DNA of 64,000 nt, taken from NCBI GenBank assembly GCA_947631445.1, contig CANRLN010000002.1, positions 1-64,000 on the forward strand, read 5' to 3'. The position numbers and the translations under genes were made by a program. The stretch comes from an uncultured Clostridia bacterium (lineage in GTDB: Bacteria; Bacillota; Clostridia; Oscillospirales; Ruminococcaceae). Positions 2,517-35,455 of this stretch are shown piece after piece. Numbering within the stretch: position 1 is the first letter of the stretch; each line of letters starts with the position of its first letter. The notes beneath the pieces were generated by a model. That model searched no databases, was not told the DNA's origin, and was given only the letters and a program-made list of their open reading frames with translations.

Positions 2517-3863
2517 TTATTTTTTATTATAAAATTCCTCAACATCTGGAACATCAATACTATCCATCATTCCGGTGTCCTGCTGGTTTGCATAACCCTG
2601 CTGTGCATAGGTATCAAGATTTGGATTAAATGAAACGTCAGATTTTAAAGCTTGTGGCATAGACAAGCCACTATATTCATAAAGGGTATGCACAAAGTCT
2701 TTAGACACCGACATATAATTAAATAAATTTTTGCACAAATATCTTTTATCCTTTTTGCTGTAATAAAAATGGTCAAGACTGATATAATTTTCCTCAAAAT
2801 TACTACTATGAAACAATGTAATATTTAAATATGGATTTTGGCTAACCTGTGTATCATAAAATCTGCCAAGCGAGAATAATATATTAGGATTATCTTCCAT
2901 ATCCGCCTTAAGATTTTTATTATCAATTGCTGTGTTGTATCTGAAGCCGTCCGAAACAATTTTTTCAGCCCAATTATCCTCACTTTCGATAAATGGCAGG
3001 TCGCTTTTTTGTTTAGTAAAGGCTATTGCAGGAATCCATATACAAAGCAGTTCGCCAAGCCACACAAGCCATAACATTATTCCCTTTACATTTTCTTTTT
3101 GTTCGTTTTGCCAAGAATAAGAACGTCCCATTGACCATCTGCCCACCGAGTTTATATCAATTATATCGCTTACAAGTCTTGAGGGGTGAAAAATTATGCT
3201 TGCCAGTGACGCTGATTTAAAATCTTCTGGATAATATTTTTTATAAAATTCTTTTGCCGAAATGTCTATATCTTCTTTTATTTGATTGAATTTTTTTTCT
3301 GCTTTTTTGAAATCCTTGCCCAGCAATTCATCATAATTTTGATACTCATACATGGTTTGATTTTTAAGTTCTGCTATCTCCTCAGCAGAAAAATAATCGC
3401 TTAAATTTCCTCCGCCCTGCCCTGCAAGTTGATTTAAATATTCATAAGCATTTTGAGAATATTCTTTTTCAAGCTGAGAATAATTTTCAAAATCTTCAAA
3501 ATCGGCAAGGTCAAAATATTCAGATGCACTTTGTTTGTCAAGTTCCTTAAAAAACTTGTTGTAGTCATAAAAATCATAAAATGCCCATTTAAAATAGGTA
3601 CTAAGTAAAAGACCAACCACCACCGCAAATATAGTTATTGGTGTGGAACGCATTTTAAAAACCTTAACAATTTTGCCTGCAATAAATCCAAGTAGTAAAC
3701 CAAAACATATTGCCAATAATATATTAAGGTAAATAACAGGACATATCCCGACAATTAAAATATAAATCATGCTGAGCAAAATTCCCGCTACCGAAACGCT
3801 AAGTCCTGTTAAAAGAAATCCTGCAAAAGAAAAGTTGTTAGATTGTTTATAATATTTATTCAT
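2517..3863 (-). CDS. Multi-pass membrane protein of unknown function
   Basis: I do not recognise this 448-residue protein. It has three predicted membrane segments near the N-terminus (about 14-40, 43-66, 76-95). A long acidic, Tyr/Phe/Lys-rich region that may form helices follows (100-255), then a fourth hydrophobic segment (about 260-282) and a soluble C-terminal tail ending in an acidic peptide. The tail carries an aspartate-rich stretch and would lie on one side of the membrane. It follows the SH3-domain gene on the same strand, but a terminator hairpin lies between them, so it may have its own transcript. The function is unknown; a role in the envelope is only a guess. Confidence 0.7.
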   Translation of the reverse strand: MNKYYKQSNNFSFAGFLLTGLSVSVAGILLSMIYILIVGICPVIYLNILLAICFGLLLGFIAGKIVKVFKMRSTPITIFAVVVGLLLSTYFKWAFYDFYDYNKFFKELDKQSASEYFDLADFEDFENYSQLEKEYSQNAYEYLNQLAGQGGGNLSDYFSAEEIAELKNQTMYEYQNYDELLGKDFKKAEKKFNQIKEDIDISAKEFYKKYYPEDFKSASLASIIFHPSRLVSDIIDINSVGRWSMGRSYSWQNEQKENVKGIMLWLVWLGELLCIWIPAIAFTKQKSDLPFIESEDNWAEKIVSDGFRYNTAIDNKNLKADMEDNPNILFSLGRFYDTQVSQNPYLNITLFHSSNFEENYISLDHFYYSKKDKRYLCKNLFNYMSVSKDFVHTLYEYSGLSMPQALKSDVSFNPNLDTYAQQGYANQQDTGMMDSIDVPDVEEFYNKK

Positions 3864-3890
3864 GTTTTTTCTCCCATATAAAATTTAATA

Positions 3891-3916
3891 AAAAAGCCTC
3901 ATTAACTGAGGCTTTC
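3891..3916 (-). terminator. Intrinsic terminator of the SH3-domain gene
   Basis: AAAGCCTCA (3893-3901) pairs with TGAGGCTTT (3907-3915) around a 5-nt loop. Read on the minus strand the stem is followed by a run of Ts. It lies between the SH3 gene stop and the next minus-strand start. Confidence 0.8.
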
Positions 3917-3942
3917 TATATTTATTAAGTTTGTTTTATAGA

Positions 3943-4734
3943 TTATGAAAGACTTCCGCCGTATACATAACCCTGTGTGCCTTCCCAGTCAACATAATAC
4001 CAATCACCGTCCTGAGAAATTACAGTAACCTCCTTGCCGATTGAAAGGCAGATGATAGAATCATAATCCGTTCCCGGACCTTCACGCAAATATACATAGC
4101 TGTTTACAGTCATTGTCTGTCCGTCCTCTGGAACTTCGGTTTCGCTCTGCGAAGCAGAAACTACAGAAGAAGAATCCACATAAGAAACATCTCCGGTTGT
4201 GCTGTCAGGTGAAACTACAATTCCGCTGTCGGTTGCGGAAGAAGAATCGGAAGATGTCGAATCAGCGGTGCTGGATTCGGCAACAGAAGAACTTTCAGCC
4301 ACCGAGCTGCTTTGTTCGGCATTAGAAGAAGAAGCGACAACATCAGGCTGTGAAACATCATTGGAAGAAACAGCAACGGAAGAAGCCGAATCCTGCTCGG
4401 TAGAAAGGATAGATTCAAGTTCAGAAGAATCCGGAAGAGTTTGAGTTGCTGTGTCAATTTTAATCTTGTCGTTTTCGCCGTTGCGGATTGTATGTTGGAA
4501 AACAAAAATAGTGATAAGACCAACAAGAATAATTGCAACTGCCGCTATAATTATGTAGGTCATAACCTTAGACACCTTGTCAATCTCCTTAGCGTTTGCC
4601 TCCGAAGCACTTACAGGTTCTTCAGGCACAAATTCCTCTTGTTCATATTCTTCATCATCGGAGGGGACTCCTACTTCCCAATCCTGCTCATCAAAGTTAT
4701 CATTTTTTTGATTATTGTCTTTGTTATTTGCCAT
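3943..4734 (-). CDS. Membrane-anchored SH3-domain protein
   Basis: The 263 residues divide into an acidic cytoplasmic tail (1-55), one membrane segment (58-80), a low-complexity Ser/Ala/Glu linker (about 105-195) and a C-terminal bacterial SH3 domain (about 207-263; NSYVYLREGPGTDYD, DGDWYYVDWEGTQGYVYG). Domains of this kind bind cell-wall peptides. The layout fits a type II membrane protein that reaches through the wall on a flexible Ser-rich stalk. There is no catalytic domain, so it is probably an adaptor or wall sensor. It has its own promoter upstream and a terminator downstream. Confidence 0.85.
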   Translation of the reverse strand: MANNKDNNQKNDNFDEQDWEVGVPSDDEEYEQEEFVPEEPVSASEANAKEIDKVSKVMTYIIIAAVAIILVGLITIFVFQHTIRNGENDKIKIDTATQTLPDSSELESILSTEQDSASSVAVSSNDVSQPDVVASSSNAEQSSSVAESSSVAESSTADSTSSDSSSATDSGIVVSPDSTTGDVSYVDSSSVVSASQSETEVPEDGQTMTVNSYVYLREGPGTDYDSIICLSIGKEVTVISQDGDWYYVDWEGTQGYVYGGSLS

Positions 4735-4778
4735 AGTATCTTTTCCTTTCTATTTAAATATAATTAGAATATAGATAT

Positions 4779-4807
4779 ATTATAACAGATTTCAATTTTT
4801 TTTGCAA
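4779..4807 (-). promoter_or_regulatory. Sigma-A-type promoter for the SH3-domain gene
   Basis: On the minus strand TTGCAA (4807-4802) is followed after 17 bp by TATAAT (4784-4779). It lies about 45 bp upstream of the start codon at 4734. Confidence 0.7.
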
Positions 4808-5026
4808 CCTCTATTTTCACTTTAAAACAAATTTCATATGATTGCACAAGATTATTTTTGATTTCGGCAAAATATCTATTAATTTTATATAATTTGACAT
4901 TATTCGACATCATCTAAATTATTCCAAATTATTAATATTGTTTAACAATGTTTAATATTATTTAAAATTATCAAAAAGTTTACAAAAAATTAACCAGTCA
5001 GACTTAAATTAGCTATACATATATGC

Positions 5027-5032
5027 TATAAT
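5027..5032 (+). promoter_or_regulatory. Possible -10 box for the T-box transcript
   Basis: A perfect TATAAT just before the T-box leader. The matching -35 (TTAAAT, 5004-5009, 17-bp spacing) is weak. The sequence between 4808 and 5003 is AT-rich, and I see nothing else in it. Confidence 0.45.
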
Positions 5033-5040
5033 CATTTTGT

Positions 5041-5300
5041 AATACATCTAAATGCGTTTTAGCGGTTTAAGTAGCGTGTGTTTTTGGTTTAAGAGAGATG
5101 TCGGTTGGTGTGAGGCATTAGGGAATATGCGTGAAGTTACCACCGTGAGCAGGCTGATTGAACATTTTAGTTTTAAAATAATTAGGTCGGTTCGGGTCGC
5201 TCCGTTAAAAGTTTGAAATGAGGTCGGCTTTGCCGATAAACCAAGGTGGTACAGCGAATTTTCGCCCTTCGGATTTTTTTCCGAAGGGCTTTTGTTTTTT
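5041..5300 (+). ncRNA. T-box leader (tRNA-sensing riboswitch)
   Basis: The leader shows several T-box marks in order: AGAGAG, GGTTGGTG, GAAG...CCACC..GAG, then the T-box core AAGGTGGTACAGCG (5243-5256, close to the consensus AGGGTGGNACCGCG) and a terminator hairpin. T-boxes read the charging level of one tRNA through a specifier codon that usually follows a GAA in Stem I. Here the sequence after it is GAACATTTTAG, which allows CAU, AUU or AAC depending on register. No clear Tyr codon sits there. The first downstream gene is a broken epimerase; tyrS is third. The amino acid sensed is therefore not settled. Confidence 0.85.
5264..5300 (+). terminator. T-box terminator hairpin
   Basis: GCCCTTCGGA (5264-5273) pairs with TCCGAAGGGC (5280-5289) across a T6 loop and is followed by TTTTGTTTTTT. 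In a T-box this is the OFF structure that competes with the antiterminator formed by the T-box core. Confidence 0.9.
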
Positions 5301-5327
5301 AAATTTTTAATGTTGGGAGGTAAAAAA

Positions 5328-6224
5328 ATGAAAATTCTTGTGACGTGAGGAACGGTTTTTGTCAGCCGTTTTGTGGCAGAATATTTTGTGAAAAAGGGTC
5401 ATGAAGTTTATGTTTTAAACAGAAATACTCGATTTCAATCAAAAGGTGTTAAGCTAATAAATAAAGATAGGCATAATTTGGGTGAAACACTAAAAGATTA
5501 TAGCTTTGATTTGGTTGTTGATGTAACAGCCTATAATGAAACAGATATTTGCGACCTGCTTGACGCAATTGGAAGTTTTAAAAATTATGTGTTTATTAGC
5601 TCCTCTGCGGTTTACCCTCAAACACTCACATCTCCCTTTAACGAAAGTCAACCGGTTGGGGAAAATATTTATTGGGGCGATTATGGCACAAACAAAATCA
5701 AGGCTGAAAAATCTTTGATTGAAAGAATTCCAAATGCTTATATTCTGCGTCCGCCTTATTTATATGGAGCAATGAATAATCTTTATCGTGAAGCATTTGT
5801 GTTTGAATGTGCCGAAAAAGACCTACCGTTCCATCTGCCACAGGACACCAATCTGTCTTTGCAGTTTTTCGATATTGAGGATTTGTGCAGGTTTATTGAA
5901 ATAATAATTAAGCTTAAACCTCAAAATCATATTTTCAATGTTGGAAATAGTGAAACCATTGACATAAAAGAATGGGTATACCTTTGTTATAAGATTTTAG
6001 ACAAAGAACCAACTATAAAATATGTGCCAAAAGAAATAGAACTTCGTGAATATTTTCCCTTTAAAAATTATAACTATAAACTTGATGTGACACAAATGTT
6101 AAAGCTTATGCCTGAAACCAAATCAATTGAGCAGGGGCTTTCTGAATCCTATTTATGGTATAAAGATAATAGAGATAAGGTTAATAGAAAGAATTATCTT
6201 GAATATATAAACAATAATTTTTAG
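5328..6224 (+). pseudogene. NAD-dependent epimerase/dehydratase interrupted by an in-frame TGA
   Basis: From the ATG at 5328 (GGGAGG 7 bp upstream) the frame reads MKILVT, then TGA at 5346-5348, then GTVFVSRFVAEYFVKKG and on to 6224. The normal family start is MKILVTGGTxFxG/SxxxA, so the TGA replaces the first Gly (GGA) of the dinucleotide-binding loop. The rest is intact for 290 codons with SSSAVY, YGTNKIKAE and LRPPYLYGA motifs of extended SDR sugar-nucleotide epimerases. A single G-to-T change would explain it. Restart at a GTG at 5373 would lack the NAD loop and has no ribosome site, so an active product is unlikely. TGA serves as a normal stop elsewhere in the window, so recoding of the whole genome is not supported. 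A sequencing error is possible. Confidence 0.8.
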
Positions 6225-6241
6225 TAATGGTGATATGTTAT

Positions 6242-6907
6242 ATGACAGATTTTGAAAATATACTTCATGAAAAAGTTAATATATTTAGGACGTTTGCAAA
6301 GGAAAACTATCCCGATAAAACGGAGGATAATGACAATGGAGAATGGGGAATAGGCACGGAATTTTATGATATGTTTGATAGTGCTTGTGATGTTATAAAA
6401 AATTTAGACCCACATATGACAAACATTCAAACTAAAGACGACCTGCTTTATGCAATTGCAAGAGATAATGAGGGAGAAGTTTTAATTGAATATTTAAAAG
6501 ATTATCCAAATTGGTTTAAAGTTTTGTGCAGAAAAGTTCTTTGCACAAACTACACAAATGCAAAATGGCAGTTTGCAAAACAGTTACCAAAATATCAGGC
6601 AGATGATAATCTTAAAGATTTGATATTTGATTTTTTGCAGGTTGAGGACGAATACACACAAAGAATGTCTTTACAGGCATTAGCTGAAATATATCCCGAC
6701 AAGGCTGAAGAATATGCTGTATATTTTTGGGAGAGAGATAAATTCAAAGACAATGCTTATTGTGAGGAATATCAAAAAATTATGGTGCTACACGTTTTAA
6801 AAGATATAAACTCAAGTAAACTTGAACATTATTTAGATTTGGCACTGAAAAGCGATTTTTATTATCTTAGGCAAAATGCAAAAGATATTTTGGATAGTAT
6901 AAAGTAA
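6242..6907 (+). CDS. Helical-repeat protein of unknown function
   Basis: This protein of 221 residues is predicted to be almost wholly helical. The second half (about 115-220) has a rhythm of paired helices (QRMSLQALAEIYPDKAEEYA, then YYLRQNAKDILDSIK) that resembles HEAT-like repeats. No catalytic motif is visible. I prefer the ATG at 6242 because GGTGAT lies 7 bp upstream; an ATG at 6227 would have no proper site. It starts 17 bp after the epimerase frame ends, so both probably share the T-box transcript. Function unknown. Confidence 0.75.
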   Translation: MTDFENILHEKVNIFRTFAKENYPDKTEDNDNGEWGIGTEFYDMFDSACDVIKNLDPHMTNIQTKDDLLYAIARDNEGEVLIEYLKDYPNWFKVLCRKVLCTNYTNAKWQFAKQLPKYQADDNLKDLIFDFLQVEDEYTQRMSLQALAEIYPDKAEEYAVYFWERDKFKDNAYCEEYQKIMVLHVLKDINSSKLEHYLDLALKSDFYYLRQNAKDILDSIK

Positions 6908-6972: not shown

Positions 6973-8172
6973 ATGACGGTTTTTGAAGAACTTAAAAGAC
7001 GTGGACTTTTGGCTCAGCTTACTGACGAAAAAGAAATTGAGGAGCTTATCAATGCAGGTAAAGCAACTTTTTATATTGGTTTTGACCCAACAGCGGATAG
7101 CTTGCACGTTGGACATTTTATGGCACTTTGCCTTATGAAAAGACTTCAAATGGCAGGCAATAAGCCTATTGTTCTTATCGGCGGAGGCACAGCTATGATT
7201 GGCGACCCCTCGGGCAAGACTGATATGCGAAAGATGATGACCAAAGAAACAATTGCACATAATGTTGAGTGTTTTAAAAAGCAGATGAGCAATTTTATTG
7301 ACTTTTCGGACGACAAAGCAATTATTATAAACAATGCGGATTGGCTTTTGGGGCTTAACTATGTTGACGTTTTGCGTGATGTTGGAGCTTGCTTTTCTGT
7401 AAATAAAATGCTGACTTTTGAGTGCTATAAGCAAAGAATGGAAAGAGGACTTACTTTCCTTGAATTTAATTACATGATTATGCAGTCGTATGATTTTTAC
7501 AGACTGTTTCAGGATTACAATTGCAATATGCAGTTTGGCGGAGATGACCAATGGGCAAATATGCTTGGCGGTACTGAACTTATCAGAAAAAAACTTGGTA
7601 AGGACGCATATGCAATGACAATAACCCTGCTTCTTAATTCTGAGGGCAAGAAGATGGGCAAGACCGAAAAGGGAGCAGTTTGGCTTGACCCCGAAAAAAC
7701 CTCTCCTTATGACTTTTTCCAATATTGGAGAAATGTTGCAGACGCTGACGTTATCAAATGCCTTAAAATGCTCACTTTTGTTCCAATTGAAGAAATTGAA
7801 GAAATGGAAAGAACTCTTGAGGGAGCAGGCTTTAACAAGGCAAAAGAACTTCTTGCCTATGAGCTTACAAAGCTTGTTCATGGCACTGAGGAGGCAGACA
7901 AGGCTCTTGCATCGGCAAAAGCACTTTTTGGAGCTGGAAAAGATGATGAGAATATGCCAACCACGAGTGTTGGCGAAAACGAAATGAACATTCTTGATTT
8001 GATTGTTGCTTGTTCGCTTGCACCATCCAAAAGCGAGGCAAGACGTCTTGTAACCCAAAACGGAATTGCCGTTGATGATGTGAAAGTAACCGACCCAAAA
8101 GCTATAATTACAATTGGTGACGGCGTTACAATCAAAAAGGGCAAAAAAGTATTCCATAAGGCTGTAAAATAA
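6973..8172 (+). CDS. tyrS: Tyrosyl-tRNA synthetase
   Basis: Class Ic synthetase (399 aa) that charges tRNA-Tyr. The HIGH-type motif is HVGH (residues 45-48), the KMSKS-type motif is KMGKT (227-231), and a C-terminal S4 RNA-binding domain covers about 330-399. The [11 protein letters not shown] motif binds tyrosine. The length is normal for the TyrS type. GGAGG lies 8 bp before the ATG. The gene could be part of the T-box-controlled unit beginning at 5041, but the specifier region there does not show a Tyr codon. A small XRE regulator gene follows after 25 bp. Confidence 0.97.
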
Positions 8173-8197
8173 TAAAATATTCAAAAGGATTATTTAT

Positions 8198-8440
8198 ATG
8201 AGTATTTCTGAAGCTGTTGCAAAGCGTATTGTTGACCTGTGCATTGAAAAAAACATAACAGTAAATAAATTATCCACAATCTCCGCTGTTACTCAATCCA
8301 CAGTAAATGATATAGTAAATCACAAGTCAAAAAATATCGGTATCGTTACTATCAAGAAACTTTGTGACGGTTTGGATATTACAATAACTGACTTTTTTGA
8401 CACAGAAAATTTTAAAAGTCTTGAACAAGAAATATATTAA
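8198..8440 (+). CDS. Small XRE-family helix-turn-helix regulator
   Basis: An 80-residue single-domain Cro/CI-type DNA-binding protein. The helix-turn-helix (about 20-60) reads VNKLSTISAVTQSTVNDIVNHK, followed by TIKKLCDGLDITITDFF, which is the classic end of this domain. There is no sensor domain. It follows tyrS on the same strand and ends at a strong terminator. It resembles the small solitary regulators common in Clostridia; the target is unknown. Confidence 0.88.
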   Translation: MSISEAVAKRIVDLCIEKNITVNKLSTISAVTQSTVNDIVNHKSKNIGIVTIKKLCDGLDITITDFFDTENFKSLEQEIY

Positions 8441-8447
8441 ATTAAAA

Positions 8448-8481
8448 AAAGGCTTAAAGGGAAATTTCCCTTTAAGCCTTT
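8448..8481. terminator. Bidirectional terminator between the XRE gene and recJ
   Basis: A perfect 34-bp palindrome with 17-bp arms (8448-8464 and 8465-8481). A-runs and T-runs flank it so that it can end both the tyrS-XRE transcript and recJ on the other strand. Confidence 0.9.
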
Positions 8482-8491
8482 AATTATAGCA

Positions 8492-10552
8492 TTATTCAGC
8501 CATTTCTAATTTTTTTCTCAAATCCTGCAAGGTTTTAGAATCGTCCAAATTCATCTTTTGGTCGGTTGGAATAACATTTGCGGTTTTGCTTGCAACATTA
8601 TATTTCATAAGTCCCAATTCTTCAAGAATATCCACAATAAACCTTATTTTAGCGAAATTCATTGAATCGGCAAGCTGGGGAATGTGGCTTAATCTTATGT
8701 AAATATTGTCAATATCCGCACAAGGAAGTTTCTGACACATGGTGTAAAAATTAGCTATATCCTGTCTTGTCGGGGTGATACGTTCAAGCAGTTGTTTTGA
8801 TACTTGTTCCCCTCTCTTGTACTGCTCGTAACAATCAAGGGACGCAAAATATTTAGCCTGTGTTGATTTGGTAAGGCGATAATCTTTCGCCTTAACACTT
8901 ATAGATTTATTGCCATTAAAAATATTAATTTCCATTGTAACAAGAAAATCAACTTTTTCTCCAACAAAAAAGCCTAATTGTGAGGGGGATTTTCCAAAAA
9001 TCAAAATGCTAAATTTTTTGTTGCAATAAATAACATCAGCCTTTGAATGTTTGCCACCAGACAATGAAACAATGTTTGTCACCCTTGCACCAATTATAGC
9101 AAAAATCGGCTGTTCGTTCTGCTCGCCGAAAGGCTCAAGCTTTTCAAGACTTTCAACCTGCTGTATATCTATATCCGAACCCTCTAAAATTTTATCCGCT
9201 TTTATGGTGAATTTTGGCATTGTCGGATTGTTTTCAAAAGCATATTTATTTACACGCTGAATAAAAGCAGGAATATTTTTTTTAGCAATGGTAAGACCGC
9301 CAGCACATTCATGACCGCCGAATTTTTCCAGCAAATCTCCACAATATTCAAGACATTTAAACATATTAAAACTCTTGATACTTCTTGCCGAACCTCTTGC
9401 AAACTCATCATCTTCCGAAGAGATTATAATATTCGGTTTTCCAAAAAGCTCTAAAATATTGGAGGATACTATACCAATAACCCCATGATGCCAATTTTCT
9501 CCGCTTATCACTAACACTCTTTGATTTAAAATATTTCTATCCTCTTGAATTTGTGACACAATGTCATTAAATATTTTCTGCTGTGCAAGCTTGCGTTGGT
9601 TGTTAAGACTGTCAAGTTCGGAGGCAAGTTCAACCGATTTTTCGCAATCATCGGTTGTAAGCATTTGTGTCGCAGTAAGGGGCGAACCAAACCTACCCGA
9701 AGCATTTATTCTTGGAGCAAGTCCAAAACCAATATTTAAAGATGTTATATTTTGCAGATTTAGTCCTGCTTTTTCCGCAAGCTTATGAATACCAACATTC
9801 TCAGTGTTTTTAATATAAAACAAGCCTTTTTGAACAATAGTACGATTTTCGCCCTTAAGTGGCACAATGTCCGCAACCGTTCCAATAGCACAAACATCTG
9901 AATATTGCTCGGTTATAAAATTATAATCTCCGTCACTTAATGCAACAGCAAGTTTAAAAGCAATTCCCACCCCCGCAAGGTCTTTAAACTTACTTGGGCA
10001 GTCGGTTTGGTGTGCATCAACAACCGCCTCTGCCTGCGGAATTTCTTCAAGTGGCTGGTGGTGGTCGGTAATAACAAGTTTCATATCCTTTTCATAGATA
10101 TATTTTGCCTCATCAATAGCTGTTATACCATTATCCACTGTTATTATAAGCTTTGTTCCCATTTCAGCTATATCATCAATAGCATTTTTATTAAGTCCAT
10201 AGCCTGCCGACCTTTCGGGAATATAATAGATAACATCTGCTCCGAGCGACTGCAAAAACATATAAAGCAAAGAAGTTGAGGTTACACCATCACAATCATA
10301 ATCGCCATATATACAAATTTTTTCGCCTGCCGTAATCGCCTCATTAATGCAATTTACAGCCTTTTGCATATCCTTAAGTTCAAAAGGGCTACTAAGCTCA
10401 TCAGCCTGAAAAAAATCTACAATATCCTCATAGCTCATTCCACGTCCTACCATAATCTCCAGAACAATTTTAGATAAATCGCATTTTTGAATATAATCAT
10501 TTACAGTTTGTTTTTGTTCATCTGATAACGGCTTTATTCTCCAGTTGTTCAT
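8492..10552 (-). CDS. recJ: Single-stranded-DNA-specific exonuclease RecJ
   Basis: RecJ degrades single-stranded DNA 5' to 3' in recombination and repair. This 686-residue form has the DHH phosphoesterase motifs GDYDCDGVTS (from residue 83) and TDHH (162-165). The DHHA1 part shows GHECAGGLTI and ASGRFGSP, and an OB-fold region follows (about 455-545). The C-terminal 110 residues form an extra domain often seen in Clostridia. Metal-binding residues look intact. It starts at ATG 10552. The pyk stop lies 64 bp upstream with a palindrome copy between. Confidence 0.95.
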   Translation of the reverse strand: MNNWRIKPLSDEQKQTVNDYIQKCDLSKIVLEIMVGRGMSYEDIVDFFQADELSSPFELKDMQKAVNCINEAITAGEKICIYGDYDCDGVTSTSLLYMFLQSLGADVIYYIPERSAGYGLNKNAIDDIAEMGTKLIITVDNGITAIDEAKYIYEKDMKLVITDHHQPLEEIPQAEAVVDAHQTDCPSKFKDLAGVGIAFKLAVALSDGDYNFITEQYSDVCAIGTVADIVPLKGENRTIVQKGLFYIKNTENVGIHKLAEKAGLNLQNITSLNIGFGLAPRINASGRFGSPLTATQMLTTDDCEKSVELASELDSLNNQRKLAQQKIFNDIVSQIQEDRNILNQRVLVISGENWHHGVIGIVSSNILELFGKPNIIISSEDDEFARGSARSIKSFNMFKCLEYCGDLLEKFGGHECAGGLTIAKKNIPAFIQRVNKYAFENNPTMPKFTIKADKILEGSDIDIQQVESLEKLEPFGEQNEQPIFAIIGARVTNIVSLSGGKHSKADVIYCNKKFSILIFGKSPSQLGFFVGEKVDFLVTMEINIFNGNKSISVKAKDYRLTKSTQAKYFASLDCYEQYKRGEQVSKQLLERITPTRQDIANFYTMCQKLPCADIDNIYIRLSHIPQLADSMNFAKIRFIVDILEELGLMKYNVASKTANVIPTDQKMNLDDSKTLQDLRKKLEMAE

Positions 10553-14618: not shown

Positions 14619-14653
14619 TAAATTATATATTTAATTTTGGAGGAATGCTTTTT

Positions 14654-16198
14654 ATGCAGCAAGAGTTTGTGTTAATTTTGGATTTTGGCGGACAGTATAA
14701 TCAGCTTATTGCAAGACGTGTTCGTGAATGTAATGTATACTGTGAAGTTAAACCCTATAATAAAGTGACAATTGAGGAGATTGAAAAATTATCCCCTAAA
14801 GGTATTATTTTTACTGGTGGTCCTCAAAGTGTTTATGGAGAAGATGCACCCAGCGTTGACAAGAAAATTTTTGAAATGGGTATCCCTGTTCTTGGTATCT
14901 GCTATGGCTCTCAGCTTATGGCTTATTCCCTTGGCGGTGAGGTTGCAACCTGCAAAGTATCAGAATATGGCAAGACCGAAACAAACTATGACCTTTCCAA
15001 CAAGCTTTTAAATGGTGTTGAAAATATGCCTGAAAAAGCTATAACTTGGATGAGTCACACCGATTATATTTCAAAACTTCCTAATGGTTTCAAGGCAATT
15101 GCTACAACCGAAAACTGCCCTGTTGCTGCAATGGCAAATGATGAAAAAAAATTATATGCCGTTCAGTTCCACCCCGAAGTAAACCACACCGAATATGGCG
15201 TTAATATTATTGAAAGTTTCTTGAAAAATATTTGCGGTTGTAAAGGCGACTGGACAATGCAAAATTATGCACAGATTGCTATAAAAGAAATCCGTGAAAA
15301 GGTTGGAGATGGAAAGGTTCTGCTTGCTCTTTCGGGCGGTGTAGACAGTTCGGTTCTTGCGGCACTTCTTTCAAAGGCTGTGGGAAACCAGCTTACCTGT
15401 ATCTTTGTTGACCACGGCTTTATGCGTAAAAATGAAGGTGACGAGGTAGAGGAAGCTTTTAAAGATTGGGATATAAATTTTGTTCGTGTGGACGCAAAGG
15501 ATAGATTTATGGACAAACTTAGAGGCGTAAGCGACCCCGAAACCAAAAGAAAAACAATCGGAGAAGAATTTATCCGTGTGTTTGAAGAAGAGGCTAAAAA
15601 AATTGGAAAAGTTGATTTTCTTGCACAGGGAACAATCTATCCTGATGTTATCGAATCTGGAAGTGGTGATGCTGCGGTTATAAAATCTCATCACAATGTT
15701 GGCGGACTTCCCGACTATGTGGACTTTAAAGAGATTATCGAACCTCTTAGAATGTTGTTTAAGGACGAAACAAGAAAGCTCGGTCAGGAACTTGGACTTT
15801 CTCCAACCCTTGTTTGGCGTCAGCCGTTCCCGGGTCCAGGGCTTGCAATAAGAATTATTGGTGAAATCACTGATGAGAAACTTGAAATTCTTCAAGATGC
15901 CGATTGGATTTTCCGTGAAGAAATTGCAAAGGCAGGTCTTGACAGAGATATTCATCAGTATTTTGCGGTGCTTACCTCCATGCGTTCGGTTGGTGTAATG
16001 GGAGATTTCAGAACCTATGATTATACACTTGCCCTTAGAGGAGTTACCACAACCGACTTTATGACAGCGGATTTTGCCCGTATTCCTTATGAAGTTCTTG
16101 AAACCTGCTCGGCAAGAATTGTAAACGAGGTTAAAAATATCAATAGAGTTGTGTATGATATAACCACAAAGCCACCTGCAACTATTGAGTGGGAATAA
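14654..16198 (+). CDS. guaA: GMP synthase (glutamine-hydrolysing)
   Basis: Amidates XMP to GMP. The glutaminase domain has the nucleophile in GICYGSQ (Cys83). The ATP-pyrophosphatase domain has SGGVDSS (227-233), and the C-terminal dimerisation domain ends in the conserved PPATIEWE. I place the start at 14654 (514 aa): GGAGGA ends at 14644, which touches the other candidate ATG at 14645 but sits 9 bp before this one. The 3' end of guaA is a known integration site for genomic islands. In this window the last 113 bp are repeated 1.75 kb downstream in altered form. Confidence 0.97.
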
Positions 16199-16200
16199 TA
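16088..16200 (+). repeat. guaA 3'-end repeat, intact copy (att-like left end)
   Basis: The last codons of guaA plus the stop and two bases match 17954-18048 with about ten substitutions and one 18-nt gap. The match ends with GAGTGGGAATAATA (one substitution, ATT/ATC, just before it), after which the flanks differ. Confidence 0.85.
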
Positions 16201-16220
16201 TAGGATAGGGGGCAAAAATA

Positions 16221-17120
16221 TTGTCCGAGATACAATTATTTTCAATAAGTAATGAAATAAAAGAATGTGTACCATCTAAAGTTATACTTGAAAAAGAACT
16301 TCAAAATCTTATTGAAAACAACATGGAAACTTTTTTTGGTGTACGTTTTTTAAAAAGCGAATATGCAATTACAAACGGAAGAATGGATAGTATCGGAATT
16401 GACGAAAATAACAATCCTGTAATTTTTGAATACAAACGCAGTCAAAGCGAAAATGTAATTAATCAAGGACTATTTTATCTTGATTGGTTATTAGACCATA
16501 AAGCTGACTTTAAATTATTGGTAATTGAAACATTGGGAAATGACGTTGCTGAAACAATTGAATGGTCAGCACCTTGCGTTATATGTATTGCAAACAGCTT
16601 TACAAAATATGATGTTCATGCAGTTAATCAAATGCAGAGAAACATTAAATTGGTTAGTTATCGCAAATATGATAATGATTTAATTTTATTTGAACATTTA
16701 AATGTGCCAGTAGTTGCACCAATCACCAGAGAAAGCTATAATTCTAATAATACTAATAGAAATGACAACAGAAAAACCCATTTGGAAAAGTTATCGGATA
16801 GCTCTGATAAAATGAAAAACCTATATTATTCAATATGCAATTTCATTGAATCTTTGAGTGACGATATTACATCTAACCAGGCAAAGTTCTATTTAGCGTA
16901 TAAAAAAGTCCAAAATATAATATGTATAGAAATTTACACCAAGCGTATTCTATTGACTTTAAAACTTAATCCAGATAAAATTGAACTGGAAGAAGGATTT
17001 TCAAAAAATGTACGTGGAATTAGTCATTACGGAACGGGAGATTTGCAATTAACAATCAGAACTGCTGAAGATTTTGAAAAAGCAAAACCATTACTTCAAA
17101 GAGCATATGACGAAAAATAA
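16221..17120 (+). CDS. PD-(D/E)XK nuclease-like protein with DUF5655 domain
   Basis: This 299-residue protein has an N-terminal NucS/DUF91-like region. Its motif TNGRMDSIGI ... VIFEYKRSQS gives Asp56 and Glu70-x-Lys72, the pattern of PD-(D/E)XK nucleases. Residues about 185-299 match the DUF5655 type (RILLTLKLNPDKIELEEGF, ISHYGTGDLQLTIR). I infer DNA or RNA cleavage or binding; the substrate is unknown. The start is TTG at 16221 with a GGGGG site 8 bp upstream. It begins 22 bp after guaA and lies between the two guaA 3' copies. The third positions look richer in A/T than in the flanking housekeeping genes. It is probably acquired cargo. Confidence 0.75.
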   Translation: MSEIQLFSISNEIKECVPSKVILEKELQNLIENNMETFFGVRFLKSEYAITNGRMDSIGIDENNNPVIFEYKRSQSENVINQGLFYLDWLLDHKADFKLLVIETLGNDVAETIEWSAPCVICIANSFTKYDVHAVNQMQRNIKLVSYRKYDNDLILFEHLNVPVVAPITRESYNSNNTNRNDNRKTHLEKLSDSSDKMKNLYYSICNFIESLSDDITSNQAKFYLAYKKVQNIICIEIYTKRILLTLKLNPDKIELEEGFSKNVRGISHYGTGDLQLTIRTAEDFEKAKPLLQRAYDEK

Positions 17121-17142
17121 TATTGAAAAAACGAGGTGTATT

Positions 17143-17949
17143 ATGTTTAATAATGCTCACAATGGAAGTGTTCGCATTGGAAATTCCCAAATGGATTATA
17201 TTTCTTTTGGTAATGGGGATAAAAATCTTGTTATGCTCCCCGGTTTAGGAGATGGGCTATCTACTGTAAAGGGAATGGCAGTTGTTTTTTCAATAATGTA
17301 CAAAATATATGCAAAAAAATTTACAGTCTATGTTTTTAGTCGAAAGGATAATCTGCCAGAGGGATATTCTACAAGAGAAATGGCAAAAGACCAAGCAGAG
17401 GCTATGAAAAGTTTAGGTATCTCAAATGCAAATGTTTTGGGAATTTCTCAAGGTGGAATGATAGCACAATATTTGGCGATTGATTATCCAAATTTAGTAG
17501 ATAAACTTATATTGGCAGTAACAAGTTCAAAACCAAATCAATTAATAGAACAAGCTATTGATGTTTGGACTAAAATGGCAACACAAGGAAATTACAGAAA
17601 TTTAATGATAGACACAGCCGAGAAATCCTATTCAGAAAGTTACCTAAAAAAATATCGGCTGATGTATCCATTTATTAAAAAAACAAAAAAGCCAAAAAGT
17701 TTTAAGCGATTTCTAATACAAGCCAATTCTTGTGTTAAGCACAATGCTTATAATGAACTTTATAAAATAAACTGCCCAACACTCGTTATTGGTGGGGATT
17801 GTGACAAAATTGTAGGAGTAGCCTCCACTACTGCAATAGCGGATAAAATTAAGGATAGCAGTTTGTTTATTTATAATGGACTTGGTCATGCACTATACGA
17901 AGAAGCAAAAGACTTTAATAAACGAGTTTTGGATTTTTTGGTAAAATAA
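17143..17949 (+). CDS. Alpha/beta-fold hydrolase
   Basis: A 268-residue serine hydrolase fold. The nucleophile elbow is GISQGG (Ser102), the acid is probably Asp219 or Asp221 in GGDCDKIVG, and the catalytic His249 is in GLGHALYEE. The oxyanion region is LPGLGDGL. I chose the ATG at 17143, with GAGGTG just upstream, over earlier in-frame starts that would overlap the previous gene. It is co-directional with the DUF5655 gene, 22 bp apart, and both lie within the guaA repeats. The substrate is unknown; small esterase-like hydrolases of this type occur in many accessory regions. Confidence 0.85.
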   Translation: MFNNAHNGSVRIGNSQMDYISFGNGDKNLVMLPGLGDGLSTVKGMAVVFSIMYKIYAKKFTVYVFSRKDNLPEGYSTREMAKDQAEAMKSLGISNANVLGISQGGMIAQYLAIDYPNLVDKLILAVTSSKPNQLIEQAIDVWTKMATQGNYRNLMIDTAEKSYSESYLKKYRLMYPFIKKTKKPKSFKRFLIQANSCVKHNAYNELYKINCPTLVIGGDCDKIVGVASTTAIADKIKDSSLFIYNGLGHALYEEAKDFNKRVLDFLVK

Positions 17950-17953
17950 TAAT

Positions 17954-18048
17954 TATGAATTGCTTGAAACCTGCTCGGTAGGAATTATAAACGAAGTTAA
18001 AAATATAAATACCATAAAACCACCTGCAACTATCGAGTGGGAATAATA
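17954..18048 (+). pseudogene. Decayed duplicate of the guaA 3' end (att-like right end)
   Basis: Read in frame, this piece gives YELLETCSVGIINEVKNIN, then a loss of six codons, then [11 protein letters not shown] and a stop. It corresponds to the last 37 codons of guaA. It has no start or ribosome site and begins 4 bp after the hydrolase stop. It is best explained as the original guaA tail displaced by an island, or as a carried-in att segment. Confidence 0.88.
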
Positions 18049-18066
18049 TTTAATATAAATGTGTAA

Positions 18067-18103
18067 AAAGGCTGTTCCAAATTTTCATTTTGGAACAGCC
18101 TTT
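18067..18103 (-). terminator. Intrinsic terminator of the AIPR gene
   Basis: Perfect 15-bp arms (18067-18081, 18089-18103) with a 7-nt loop. On the minus strand a T5 run follows. It lies just downstream of the AIPR stop. Confidence 0.88.
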
Positions 18104-18111
18104 AAAAATAA

Positions 18112-19974
18112 TTAATCTTTAATGAAACTTTTTAAATCTTCGTTCGTATCATTCGTAGGCATTAGCATCATATCATCTAAACAAGCATAATAAATTGAAT
18201 CATCTATATCTTGTTTTATCATAACACCATATTCTGATTTTTTATTAGTAATATATCTACGAGAATAGATTTTTGTCAATGTAGAATAAAATTCAAACAC
18301 TTGTGAAAATAAAGACTTATTAGAAAAAAGCTTATCTAATTTCGAATTTATTTCATCAAATGTTTTATTCTTAAACGAATAACCCATAAAGGTAAGTAAA
18401 TAATAAGGAATAGGATGCCTTTTATCATTTTTTTTCTTTTCTTGATCAGCTTTTAAATATGTAAAGAAAATTTTTATCATGTTGTCAATCGTAAAATAAT
18501 TATCTATATTTAATGAAAAACTTTCATAAATTTGACTATTTGGTTTTAAAACTTCGCAACCTTTTTTGTATGTATTAACATCACTTCTAATAAACGCCAG
18601 TAATACTTTAAGAAGCTTTTCTAAAGGAATTTGTGTGGAATTAAAATTTTTATATTCAACATCAAAAAATTTAAATAAATCTTTATTCTTATCATTAATA
18701 ACAGATTTCTTAGTTAAATCTTTAAATTCTGTTTGGAATTTATTTTTATCGCTTGGTTTAACAAGCAATAACAGCCCTCTTTTCTTAAACTCATCCTGAA
18801 AATTTAAAAAATAATGTTTTTTTGATGCAAAAGCCTTATCATTTATGGCATTTTGACTATTAGTATATCTTACAATATTTACATCTAAATTAGCATGATT
18901 CTTTTTCGTTTTTTCATCAAATACAAAAATTTTCACTAAAACAAAAGTTTTTTCAAATTCAGTTTGAATTTTTTCCGGAGAATAATGCGACAACACTTCA
19001 GCAATAGAATTAACCGTTTGGCAACCATTAACTATTTGTGGATTTTTTAACTCAAAACCATATATATTTTTGAGATTTTCTCCAACCTCTGATCCCTTAA
19101 GAGTTTTACATTCTTCGCATATAATTGTAACACCATTATTATAGTAGAAAAAATTAGCTCTATCATCATCATCTTTTAATGTTCTAATTATTCCATTATT
19201 TATGCCTTTAGTTCCTAAATATTCTCGAATGTTTTCTTCAAATAATTCATAATTTGTATCTATTGCACTTTTATACATATCATACAAATCTGAAACATTA
19301 ACTAATACATATCTTAAGTCAATCATCCACGAGAGTTCATACTCTTCGGGGCGGACATCAAGAGAAGTTCCAGATCTTCTTGTTGTAAGTTTTGCAGAAA
19401 AGTTCTTTTTTTCTGTAAACCTTTCTCCAAAATAAGTCATTTTAATATCACTTAGTGTTAAATATTTAGCATAAATGCCTGCTTCAATTTTAGTGTTGTC
19501 ATTTTTATCAAATTTAAATTCATTAATTAATGTATTAATATCTTCGCTTTTATATTCATTAGTAACATAAAAATATAAATATATTTTGTAATCACTATCA
19601 GTTATTGCTCGATTAAAAATTTTTTGCAATTCCAAAGATTTTTTATATTGATTCTTAAGAAGCAACCTTATTGGTGTATATAAAAAATCCGAAACACATT
19701 CCCTTGAAACAGGAGTTTCATCTGAATAATATTTATTTTGAATTAAAAAAAGTTCTTTATTATCTTCATAATGAACAAAGCAATCAACTCCCTTATCATT
19801 AATATCTGTAATATTATTAGGTATTACTTCTTCATCTAAGTTATAAAGGTGATTAAGAATCCAGTAATTAAAAGCATATTCATCATTTGCTATTTTTTCA
19901 TCAACATTTGAAAATTGTTGCTGAATTAAAGCAATGTCATCTGATATTTGTTTTTTAAAGCAACTATTTTCCAT
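18112..19974 (-). CDS. AIPR-family protein with Mrr-like nuclease N-terminus (putative phage defence)
   Basis: This 620-residue protein carries the AIPR core, seen from NPQIVNGCQTVNSIAEVL (about residue 315) and the preceding FFYYNNGVTIICE. AIPR proteins were named for abortive infection phage resistance. The N-terminus has KGVDCFVHYEDNKELFLIQNK, giving Asp64 and Gln79-x-Lys81. This is the D...QxK pattern of Mrr-type restriction nucleases, so cleavage of nucleic acid is a fair inference. The gene is strongly A/T-rich, sits on the strand opposite guaA and ends at its own terminator. Upstream are AAGGAGGTG, a TATAAT and a perfect 12-bp palindrome. It adjoins the guaA scar but lies outside the two repeats. 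It could also be part of a restriction-like system whose other genes are lost. Confidence 0.85.
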   Translation of the reverse strand: MENSCFKKQISDDIALIQQQFSNVDEKIANDEYAFNYWILNHLYNLDEEVIPNNITDINDKGVDCFVHYEDNKELFLIQNKYYSDETPVSRECVSDFLYTPIRLLLKNQYKKSLELQKIFNRAITDSDYKIYLYFYVTNEYKSEDINTLINEFKFDKNDNTKIEAGIYAKYLTLSDIKMTYFGERFTEKKNFSAKLTTRRSGTSLDVRPEEYELSWMIDLRYVLVNVSDLYDMYKSAIDTNYELFEENIREYLGTKGINNGIIRTLKDDDDRANFFYYNNGVTIICEECKTLKGSEVGENLKNIYGFELKNPQIVNGCQTVNSIAEVLSHYSPEKIQTEFEKTFVLVKIFVFDEKTKKNHANLDVNIVRYTNSQNAINDKAFASKKHYFLNFQDEFKKRGLLLLVKPSDKNKFQTEFKDLTKKSVINDKNKDLFKFFDVEYKNFNSTQIPLEKLLKVLLAFIRSDVNTYKKGCEVLKPNSQIYESFSLNIDNYFTIDNMIKIFFTYLKADQEKKKNDKRHPIPYYLLTFMGYSFKNKTFDEINSKLDKLFSNKSLFSQVFEFYSTLTKIYSRRYITNKKSEYGVMIKQDIDDSIYYACLDDMMLMPTNDTNEDLKSFIKD

Positions 19975-20137: not shown

Positions 20138-20164
20138 ATATCTCCCGCCAAAAGCGAGAGATAT
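20138..20164. repeat. Dispersed palindrome copy 4 (after proA)
   Basis: 11-bp arms (20138-20148 and 20154-20164) with one mismatch, loop CAAAA, 11 bp downstream of the proA stop. Confidence 0.75.
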
Positions 20165-33146: not shown

Positions 33147-35447
33147 ATGTGTAAAAAATCAGACCAACCCCTACCGAACATTTACATTAAACCAAAAATC
33201 CCTCAGGTGGATTATAGTATTGAAAGAATACTCAAGATTATAACCGAAAGCGAAAAAAACTATGACACCCCTAAAATCGTTGCTGCCTATAATCTTGCAA
33301 ACAAATGTCATGACGGACAGAAGCGTGAATCGGGAGAAAAATATATCATTCACCCTCTTGCGGTTGCCAACATACTGCTGGATTTGGGAATGGATACCGA
33401 CACGCTTTGTGCCGCACTTTTGCATGATGTAGTTGAGGATACCAATTGTACACTTGGCAAAATAAGAAACGATTTCGGAACCGATGTTGCAAACCTTGTA
33501 GATGGCGTTACAAAAGTTACCTCTCAAATTCAAGATTTCCCAAACAATAAAGATATGTCCGACACAAGCAAAGAGATTAAAAAAGCTACCAGCCTGCGTA
33601 AAATCCTTTTTGCAATGGCAGAGGATTTTCGTGTTATAATAATAAAGCTTGCTGACCGGGTGCATAATATGAGAACTCTTAATTTTTGTAGCGACGACAA
33701 ACGAAGAAGAATTGCTTTTGAAACACTTACAATTTATGCTCCCATTGCCGACCAGTTGGGAATAAACACTTTTAAAAACGAACTACAAGATTTATCCATT
33801 TATTACCTTGACCCTTATGGCTATCAAGAGATTGAAGAACAGATTTTTTCCAACCAAAAACAACGTCAATCGGTCATTGATAATATTATAGATGAACTTA
33901 CAAAACGTTTTAAAAATGTTTTTAAAAAGCCTCCAGTTATTTCTGGCAGAGTAAAGAGCGTTTACAGCTTATACAACAAAATATACAAACATGACAAAGA
34001 ATTTGAACAGGTGTTTGATACCTACGCTGTTAGGATTATTGTGGATTCAATTTCAGAATGTTATCATTCTTTAGGAATAGTCCATGAAATGTTCACTGTA
34101 CTTCCAGAACGCTTTAAAGATTATATTTCAGCCCCAAAAGAAAATGGTTATCGTTCAATTCACACAACCGTTATTGGACATCAAGGGATTACATTTGAAG
34201 TTCAGATTAGAACCCACGAAATGCACGAGGACGCAGAGTACGGAATTGCCGCTCACTGGAAATATAAAGAAAATAATTTTAGAAAAGATGATTTGGATTC
34301 AAGATTGAATTGGGCAAGACGTATTATTGAATCTCAACAGGAGTCAAATGACGTTGAAGAAATTTTTAATGCAATAAAAAGCGATGTTGCCGCCGAAATG
34401 GTTGTTGCTTATACACCCTCTGGCGAAACTATATCACTCCCAAATGGTGCAACCCCAATAGATTTTGCTTATCGTATTCACACACAGGTTGGTCACAACA
34501 TGATAGGAGCAAAAATAAACGGCAAAATGGTTTCGTTCGACCATGAAATACAAACGGGAAATATTGTGGAAATTATTACAACCAATGCCGAAAATCATGG
34601 TCCTTCCCGTTCGTGGATGAACATTTGTAAAACCACCGCCGCCAAATCTAAAATACGTTCTTGGTTTAAAAAAGAAAAACGTGAGGAAAATATATTTGAA
34701 GGAAAATCCGCCCTTGAAAGAGAGTTTCGCAGAAATAATATAAGAATACCCGAAAATGAACTCGCAACTTTTCTTGAACCGATTATGAAAAGACATTCCT
34801 GCAACACCTTTGAAGATTTGTTTGCTGCTATCGGATATGGCGGTATTTTAATCTCCAAAATAATGCCAAGAATAAAAAATGAATATCTTAAACAATTTGT
34901 TAAAGACACCGCCGAAAATGAAAAGGCTACTATTTCTACTACAAACAATCAAACTTCCCAATCGGGAGTTATTGTGGACGGCAATATTGACAACTGTCTT
35001 ATTAAATTTGCTCAATGTTGCACCCCACTTCCCGGCGACCCAATCATTGGTTTTATCACCAAAGGTCACGGAATTTCTATTCACAAGCTAAATTGTACCA
35101 ACTATATTAATCAATCCAAAAACGAAGCGGACAAAGCAAGATGGATTCCCTGCCAATGGGCAGAACATCGCAGCAGCGGATATTTTAAGGCAACCATTGT
35201 TATTATTGCAATCGACCGAATCGGACTACTTGCAGATGTAACCTCGGTGCTTTCGGCAATTCATATTCTTATTCATGAGTCATCGTCAAGGAATTTAAAA
35301 AATGGCAACGCCTGCGTTACCGTAACAATAAGCGTTGCTGATACCGCCCAGCTTAAAACGGTGGTTGACAAGCTTTCCAAGGTTAAGAGTGTTATAAGCG
35401 TTGACCGCCCAAACACCTATAATCGTGACAATACTTCTAAAAAATAA
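33147..35447 (+). CDS. relA: (p)ppGpp synthetase/hydrolase (RelA/SpoT, long RSH)
   Basis: Stringent-response enzyme of 766 residues. Order: HD hydrolase domain (about 45-200, HPLAVANILLDLG, LHDVVEDTN), synthetase domain (about 240-360, RVKSVYSLYNKI, YISAPKENGYRSIHT), TGS domain (about 415-475, VVAYTPSGETISLP), a helical/zinc-finger region with QCCTPLPGDPIIGF, and a C-terminal ACT domain (about 695-765). Both catalytic domains look intact, so it is likely bifunctional. AGGAGG precedes the ATG. The gene ends at a palindrome copy and an MBL-hydrolase gene follows. Confidence 0.97.
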   Translation: MCKKSDQPLPNIYIKPKIPQVDYSIERILKIITESEKNYDTPKIVAAYNLANKCHDGQKRESGEKYIIHPLAVANILLDLGMDTDTLCAALLHDVVEDTNCTLGKIRNDFGTDVANLVDGVTKVTSQIQDFPNNKDMSDTSKEIKKATSLRKILFAMAEDFRVIIIKLADRVHNMRTLNFCSDDKRRRIAFETLTIYAPIADQLGINTFKNELQDLSIYYLDPYGYQEIEEQIFSNQKQRQSVIDNIIDELTKRFKNVFKKPPVISGRVKSVYSLYNKIYKHDKEFEQVFDTYAVRIIVDSISECYHSLGIVHEMFTVLPERFKDYISAPKENGYRSIHTTVIGHQGITFEVQIRTHEMHEDAEYGIAAHWKYKENNFRKDDLDSRLNWARRIIESQQESNDVEEIFNAIKSDVAAEMVVAYTPSGETISLPNGATPIDFAYRIHTQVGHNMIGAKINGKMVSFDHEIQTGNIVEIITTNAENHGPSRSWMNICKTTAAKSKIRSWFKKEKREENIFEGKSALEREFRRNNIRIPENELATFLEPIMKRHSCNTFEDLFAAIGYGGILISKIMPRIKNEYLKQFVKDTAENEKATISTTNNQTSQSGVIVDGNIDNCLIKFAQCCTPLPGDPIIGFITKGHGISIHKLNCTNYINQSKNEADKARWIPCQWAEHRSSGYFKATIVIIAIDRIGLLADVTSVLSAIHILIHESSSRNLKNGNACVTVTISVADTAQLKTVVDKLSKVKSVISVDRPNTYNRDNTSKK

Positions 35448-35455
35448 TTTCTTAG

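Follow-up and report, generated by a model that had tools for sequence, protein, structure and literature searches.

Two candidate anti-phage nucleases, probably acquired separately, lie side by side next to guaA in an uncultured Clostridia bacterium

Do neighbouring accessory genes with a defensive look form one system, or are they independent genes lying side by side? The question arises for contig CANRLN010000002.1 (assembly GCA_947631445.1) of an uncultured Clostridia bacterium of the Ruminococcaceae, of which we analysed positions 1 to 64,000 (hereafter, the window). Next to guaA, it codes for a DUF5655 protein, here called S18, for an alpha/beta hydrolase and for an AIPR/AbiU-family protein, here called AIPR. 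The gene order is asnB (-), guaA (+), S18 (+), hydrolase (+), a degenerate copy of the guaA end (the scar), a terminator, AIPR (-), proA (-) and proB (-). The initial annotation proposed that S18, the hydrolase and AIPR make up a candidate defence module with two nuclease-type sites. Its coordinates and residue numbers (D56 and E70-Y-K72 in S18, D64 and Q79-N-K81 in AIPR) are all correct, and S18 and AIPR do come from families that are listed as defence or as candidates for it. The idea of a single module did not hold. S18 and AIPR are new members of already catalogued candidate anti-phage families, and we consider with good confidence that they represent two independent single-gene nuclease defences, separately acquired and lying side by side, rather than one system.

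A genome-wide scan yielded 74 other S18 loci, whose neighbour genes within 5 kb were clustered. Neither the hydrolase nor the AIPR of the window was found by tblastn at any of the 74, and no AIPR of any kind lies near S18 at these loci according to a profile search that detects all 89 known AIPR loci. The conserved S18-hydrolase-AIPR neighbourhood that the initial annotation suggested looking for is thus absent from all of them. Among 394 genomes of the order, S18-like matches occur in 13 and AIPR in seven, and the window's own genome is the only one with both. This near-complete lack of overlap is weak by itself, because chance alone predicts about 0.2 shared genomes, unlike the neighbourhood result, which is not weak. 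Furthermore, the scar and the G+C content split the region into an insert with S18 and the hydrolase and another with AIPR. One might still picture a composite module in which S18 and AIPR act jointly as two nucleases and the hydrolase is a sensor or a toxin: all three genes fit into 4 kb, S18 and AIPR each have a nuclease-type site, and both families are independently tied to restriction-modification (RM). Nevertheless, we reject a three-gene module on the negative co-occurrence, which together with the division of the region and the separate transcripts described below makes joint action very improbable.

The last 115 bp of guaA recur downstream of the hydrolase gene, with 84 of 94 aligned bases identical (89%) and an 18-bp deletion. 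The alignment score is 133, as compared with at most 43 for shuffled sequences. The repeat motif occurs at these two sites only in the whole genome, and the scar copy is closer to this genome's own guaA than to that of any relative. The scar beside which all three genes had been placed is therefore real, but S18 and the hydrolase sit between guaA and the scar, and AIPR lies outside. The G+C content is 29% for S18, 33% for the hydrolase and 25% for AIPR, against 40% for guaA, proA and proB.

The duplicated guaA end contains GAGTGGGA, which is the published integration site of GIsul2 (PMC9376610), and streptococcal integrative and conjugative elements (ICEs) integrate at the guaA 3' end too (PMC4701971). 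A tyrosine integrase gene is present just downstream of guaA in five of 20 related loci, two of them confirmed in Pfam. Another genome of this family has S18 directly after guaA (L046, the same locus as L280), and in an uncultured Ruminococcus (L047) S18 comes after a guaA-like gene; the guaA-S18 linkage therefore recurs. We propose that S18 arrived, with the hydrolase as a passenger, in an element that would have used the guaA 3' end as its attachment site, and that the integrase has presumably been lost since, with the duplicated guaA end remaining. As with GIsul2 and the streptococcal ICEs, insertion would have occurred at the guaA 3' end at GAGTGGGA, and guaA would have been restored. Many relatives also harbour a shorter second GuaA-like ATP-pyrophosphatase (L113 4329-5315, L025, L047 6975-7967 and others) of about 330 amino acids, about 55% identical to residues 212-517 and sometimes encoded just downstream of guaA.

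S18 matches both NucS_C and DUF5655 of Pfam, each over the curated cut-off, and from residue 1 to 298 it matches the PADLOC phage-defence candidate (PDC) profile PDC-S18 (E 5.2e-129). PDCs are single-gene candidates recognized because they are embedded within other defence systems ('guilt by embedding'); they mostly lack experimental validation (PMC12988326). S18 shares the NucS_C and DUF5655 architecture of PDC-S18 along the full length of the profile; what distinguishes it is its location in a guaA-site remnant, accompanied by a hydrolase. Residues E24, Q28, D56, E70, K72, Q82 and Y86 are invariant among 42 S18 proteins with identities down to 29%. In an alignment with Pyrococcus abyssi NucS (2vld), E24, D56, E70, K72 and Q82 correspond to E127, D160, E174, K176 and Q187, which we take to be the NucS active-site residues. 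The AlphaFold model of S18 has a pLDDT (predicted local distance difference test) score of 86, and its nuclease half resembles EndoMS/NucS, which provide the top Foldseek matches (1.7e-5 to 9.7e-4). Shedu matches are weaker (E 0.007-0.015), and YjbR and DUF1801 structures are also found among the weak matches. Sequence and model suggest that S18 is a PD-(D/E)XK nuclease whose catalytic domain (residues about 20-160) is of the NucS/EndoMS type, with DUF5655 at the C-terminus.

S18 has the catalytic-domain fold and the E-D-ExK-Q residues of NucS/EndoMS (PDB 2vld, 5gke), but the N-terminal NucS domain is missing, and DUF5655 is found at the C-terminus instead. We rejected the possibility that S18 is a true NucS: it scores 26.8 bits against an NCBIfam equivalog cut-off of 216, and the match is confined to residues 24-95. 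As for Shedu (SduA; PDB 8ti9, 8ps5), it is likewise a single-gene defence with a PD-(D/E)XK domain, whereas the accessory domain of S18 differs and the Shedu sequence profile is absent among its PADLOC matches. Most likely, S18 would cleave phage DNA, either on its own, as Shedu does, or, in other genomes, in the company of RM systems.

Elsewhere, S18 genes often have RM neighbours. RM genes are present at 21 of the 74 loci, and 17 of these have an RM gene on the S18 strand at a distance below 250 nt. The neighbours include HsdR-type helicases (10), HsdM (9), HsdS (8), Eco57I-type methylases (6) and BsuBI/PstI-type endonucleases (4); the BsuBI/PstI label comes from reading the sequence, and the remaining RM labels agree with Pfam. 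A Cupriavidus plasmid has the order hsdM-hsdS-S18-helicase with a 4-bp gene overlap, and S18 adjoins hsdMSR in divergent orientation on a Rhizobium plasmid. Judged by these neighbours across the family, S18 is a restriction-associated nuclease. In other genomes, it may assist RM operons of types I and II as their accessory nuclease. We also noticed a GmrSD_N-GmrSD_C-DUF5655 fusion adjoining HsdR and a RhuM-family gene (L285, G374 contig C1, 7952-13198, - strand). DUF5655 is common to type IV-like and NucS-like nucleases.

Relatives of S18 with 40-60% identity are also present in 15 viral contigs of IMG/VR (L182-L196), and therefore prophages or satellites too carry this candidate defence gene. 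The genome of the window itself has a second, distant S18 relative with DUF5655 (30% identity; L282, G000 contig C50, 6659-7585, - strand). It directly adjoins a tyrosine integrase gene (7747-8880), and two consecutive open reading frames nearby (3416-6390) read like serine recombinases. This locus reads as an instance of S18-type genes as mobile-element cargo.

Proximity to RM genes might also be understood if S18 were an accessory DNA-repair enzyme, i.e. a NucS/EndoMS-like endonuclease for mismatched or branched DNA involved in the repair or turnover of modified DNA. EndoMS and NucS are indeed its closest solved structures, with identical catalytic residues, and there is a precedent in the Vsr endonucleases, repair enzymes whose genes lie next to those of DNA methyltransferases. 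Nevertheless, S18 lacks the NucS N-terminal domain and falls far under the NucS equivalog cut-offs, its distribution is patchy (13 of 394 genomes), and its settings include plasmids, viral contigs and the vicinity of integrases. In addition, the methyltransferases linked to type I systems are of the N6-adenine family and do not make the T:G mismatches that Vsr mends. A role in repair is therefore unlikely in our view. The presence of S18 within RM operons and on mobile elements, the 15 viral contigs among them, would also suit a factor with which mobile elements counter restriction, protect themselves or are regulated, instead of a nuclease that attacks. To this we give very little credence, as the catalytic residues are invariant, which is unexpected for a non-catalytic regulator.

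AIPR matches the Pfam family of that name (PF10592) with an E-value of 2e-33 and 116.7 bits for a cut-off of 25; Mrr_cat_2 is a weak match. The PADLOC AbiU match (E 1.9e-28) is partial and covers residues 117-401 only. In an alignment of PF10592 proteins made of the window protein and those of 34 viral loci, D60, D64, Q79 and K81 are invariant in all 35 AIPRs, which have 15-22% identity to that of the window. The PD-(D/E)XK-type sites initially proposed for both proteins are thus supported by residue invariance in the 42 S18 proteins and the 35 AIPRs. In the AIPR model, residues 1-180 form an alpha/beta domain predicted with good confidence, and the C-terminal third is poor. The best PDB matches are weak (E > 0.03) and include MspJI, EcoO109I and FokI, and a sequence search of solved structures with AIPR gave no match. 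A search of viral contigs with the AIPR sequence as single query found no close relative; a search of these contigs with the family alignment gave 80 loci. The closest relative in the order (L126/L283, G015 contig C46, about 33676-35448; segments 44-52% identical) looks like a pseudogene because of several mid-gene stops.

AIPR proteins have been linked to RM operons (PMC2292703; PMC3506569), and an N-terminal HEPN (RNase) domain has been ascribed to AbiU1/AIPR (PMC3506569). The all-helical HEPN fold does not fit the alpha/beta N-terminus predicted for AIPR, and the invariant D/D/QxK residues appear to conflict with that assignment. The window protein thus resembles the AbiU/AIPR family in its AIPR core and AbiU profile match, but its N-terminus resembles a QxK nuclease rather than HEPN. 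Unlike in the MZA system, AIPR stands alone, with no RM or MZA partners, and it scores 58.2 bits for the MzaE equivalog, which requires 1050. We propose that AIPR was acquired separately, with its own transcript, and that it is most likely a DNA nuclease that would block phage by abortive infection or restriction.

The positions of these genes and of the signals around them are collected in Table 1. The guaA promoter-like site is the nearest strong one upstream of S18, the gaps from guaA to S18 and from S18 to the hydrolase are 22 bp each, and no terminator was found within the guaA-S18-hydrolase stretch. Because the S18-hydrolase pair lies between guaA and a strong terminator, the two genes are probably transcribed by read-through that starts at the guaA promoter and ends at the old guaA terminator. 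This terminator has a z score of about -7, and zero shuffled sequences were equally stable. The simplest reading is that guaA-S18-hydrolase and AIPR are separate transcripts that have this terminator in common. A good ribosome-binding site precedes AIPR. As for the hydrolase, it starts at an ATG with GAGGTG upstream, and the longer frame from the TTG at 17074 is a mechanical artefact of over-extension. It has a GISQGG nucleophile motif and the D and H of the triad, and it meets no equivalog cut-off. Its relatives in two other genomes (72% identity in G402, 51% in G051) are both found among non-defence genes. We rejected it as a defence effector, given those neighbours at the two homologous loci examined and no strong PADLOC match; it is an ordinary alpha/beta hydrolase, probably carried as a passenger.

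Table 1. Coordinates of genes, repeats and transcription signals around the S18 and AIPR genes of the window
Feature	Position	Strand	Remarks
Promoter-like site of guaA	14590..14618	+	TTGACA-17-TATAAT, TG before -10; consensus match 12/12
guaA, GMP synthase, intact	14645..16198	+	Sole full-length guaA in genome; <=83% identity to same-family guaA
guaA 3' end, left copy of duplicated site, attL-like	16087..16201	+	Contains GAGTGGGA; direct repeat with 17953-18049
S18, NucS_C + DUF5655 nuclease, PDC-S18 (predicted)	16221..17120	+	299 amino acids, TTG start; Pfam, PADLOC, invariant residues, model
Alpha/beta hydrolase, probable passenger	17143..17949	+	268 amino acids; Abhydrolase_1 5e-18
guaA scar, degenerate repeat of the final 115 bp of the gene, attR-like	17953..18049	+	18-bp deletion
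Bidirectional intrinsic terminator	18067..18103	.	15-bp stem; -23.2 (+) and -21.8 (-) kcal/mol
AIPR/AbiU-family protein	18112..19974	-	620 amino acids; D60, D64, Q79, K81 in N-terminal nuclease-type domain
proA terminator	20138..20164	-	Stem-loop and T run; parts AIPR from upstream pro operon

Several points weigh against two independent nucleases, one of them brought in at the guaA site. A tblastn search with three integrases found none left in the window, and the guaA duplicate (115/97 bp) is longer and more diverged than the repeats of 12-54 bp reported for tyrosine-integrase elements (PMC4701971). For these reasons, we regard the route of insertion as inferred, and the insert, which is only 1.9 kb in size, lacks an integrase and has a guaA-end repeat that is unusually long and diverged, is unlike the known guaA-site islands. 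In addition, the scar is absent at the other guaA-S18 locus checked (L280). The enrichment of HsdM in S18 flanks, with nine observed and about 0.13 expected from about 40 strong HsdM matches in 81 related genomes, is a rough estimate, and the enrichment counts treat related loci, such as L094 and L095 or the shared cassette of L033, L038, L039 and L041, as independent. No RM gene flanks S18 in the window, so that its RM link is a property of the family. Confidence in the AIPR model is only partial (mean pLDDT 66), and no PDB match to it is significant. Lastly, our literature search found no experiment in which PDC-S18 stops phage, and nothing on DUF5655 or PDC-S18.

Beyond this locus, it is tempting to speculate that NucS-like nucleases with DUF5655 regularly serve type I RM systems, and some of type II, as an additional subunit and also work alone, and that AIPR/AbiU proteins are defined by an N-terminal D-QxK DNA nuclease rather than by the published HEPN (RNase) domain. 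We put this forward tentatively, as somewhat less than an even chance; neither statement was found in the literature. What our analysis offers at the family level is the recurrent embedding of the S18 nuclease among RM genes, and a view of the AIPR family as QxK nucleases. Several phyla have S18 within type I RM operons, with overlapping genes among the examples, and a role as RM accessory nuclease is therefore a candidate that can be tested. Similarly, the invariant D/QxK residues make the mechanism of AIPR/AbiU proteins testable as DNA cleavage. In this Clostridia family, the guaA 3' end appears to be a repeated landing site for such single-gene defences.

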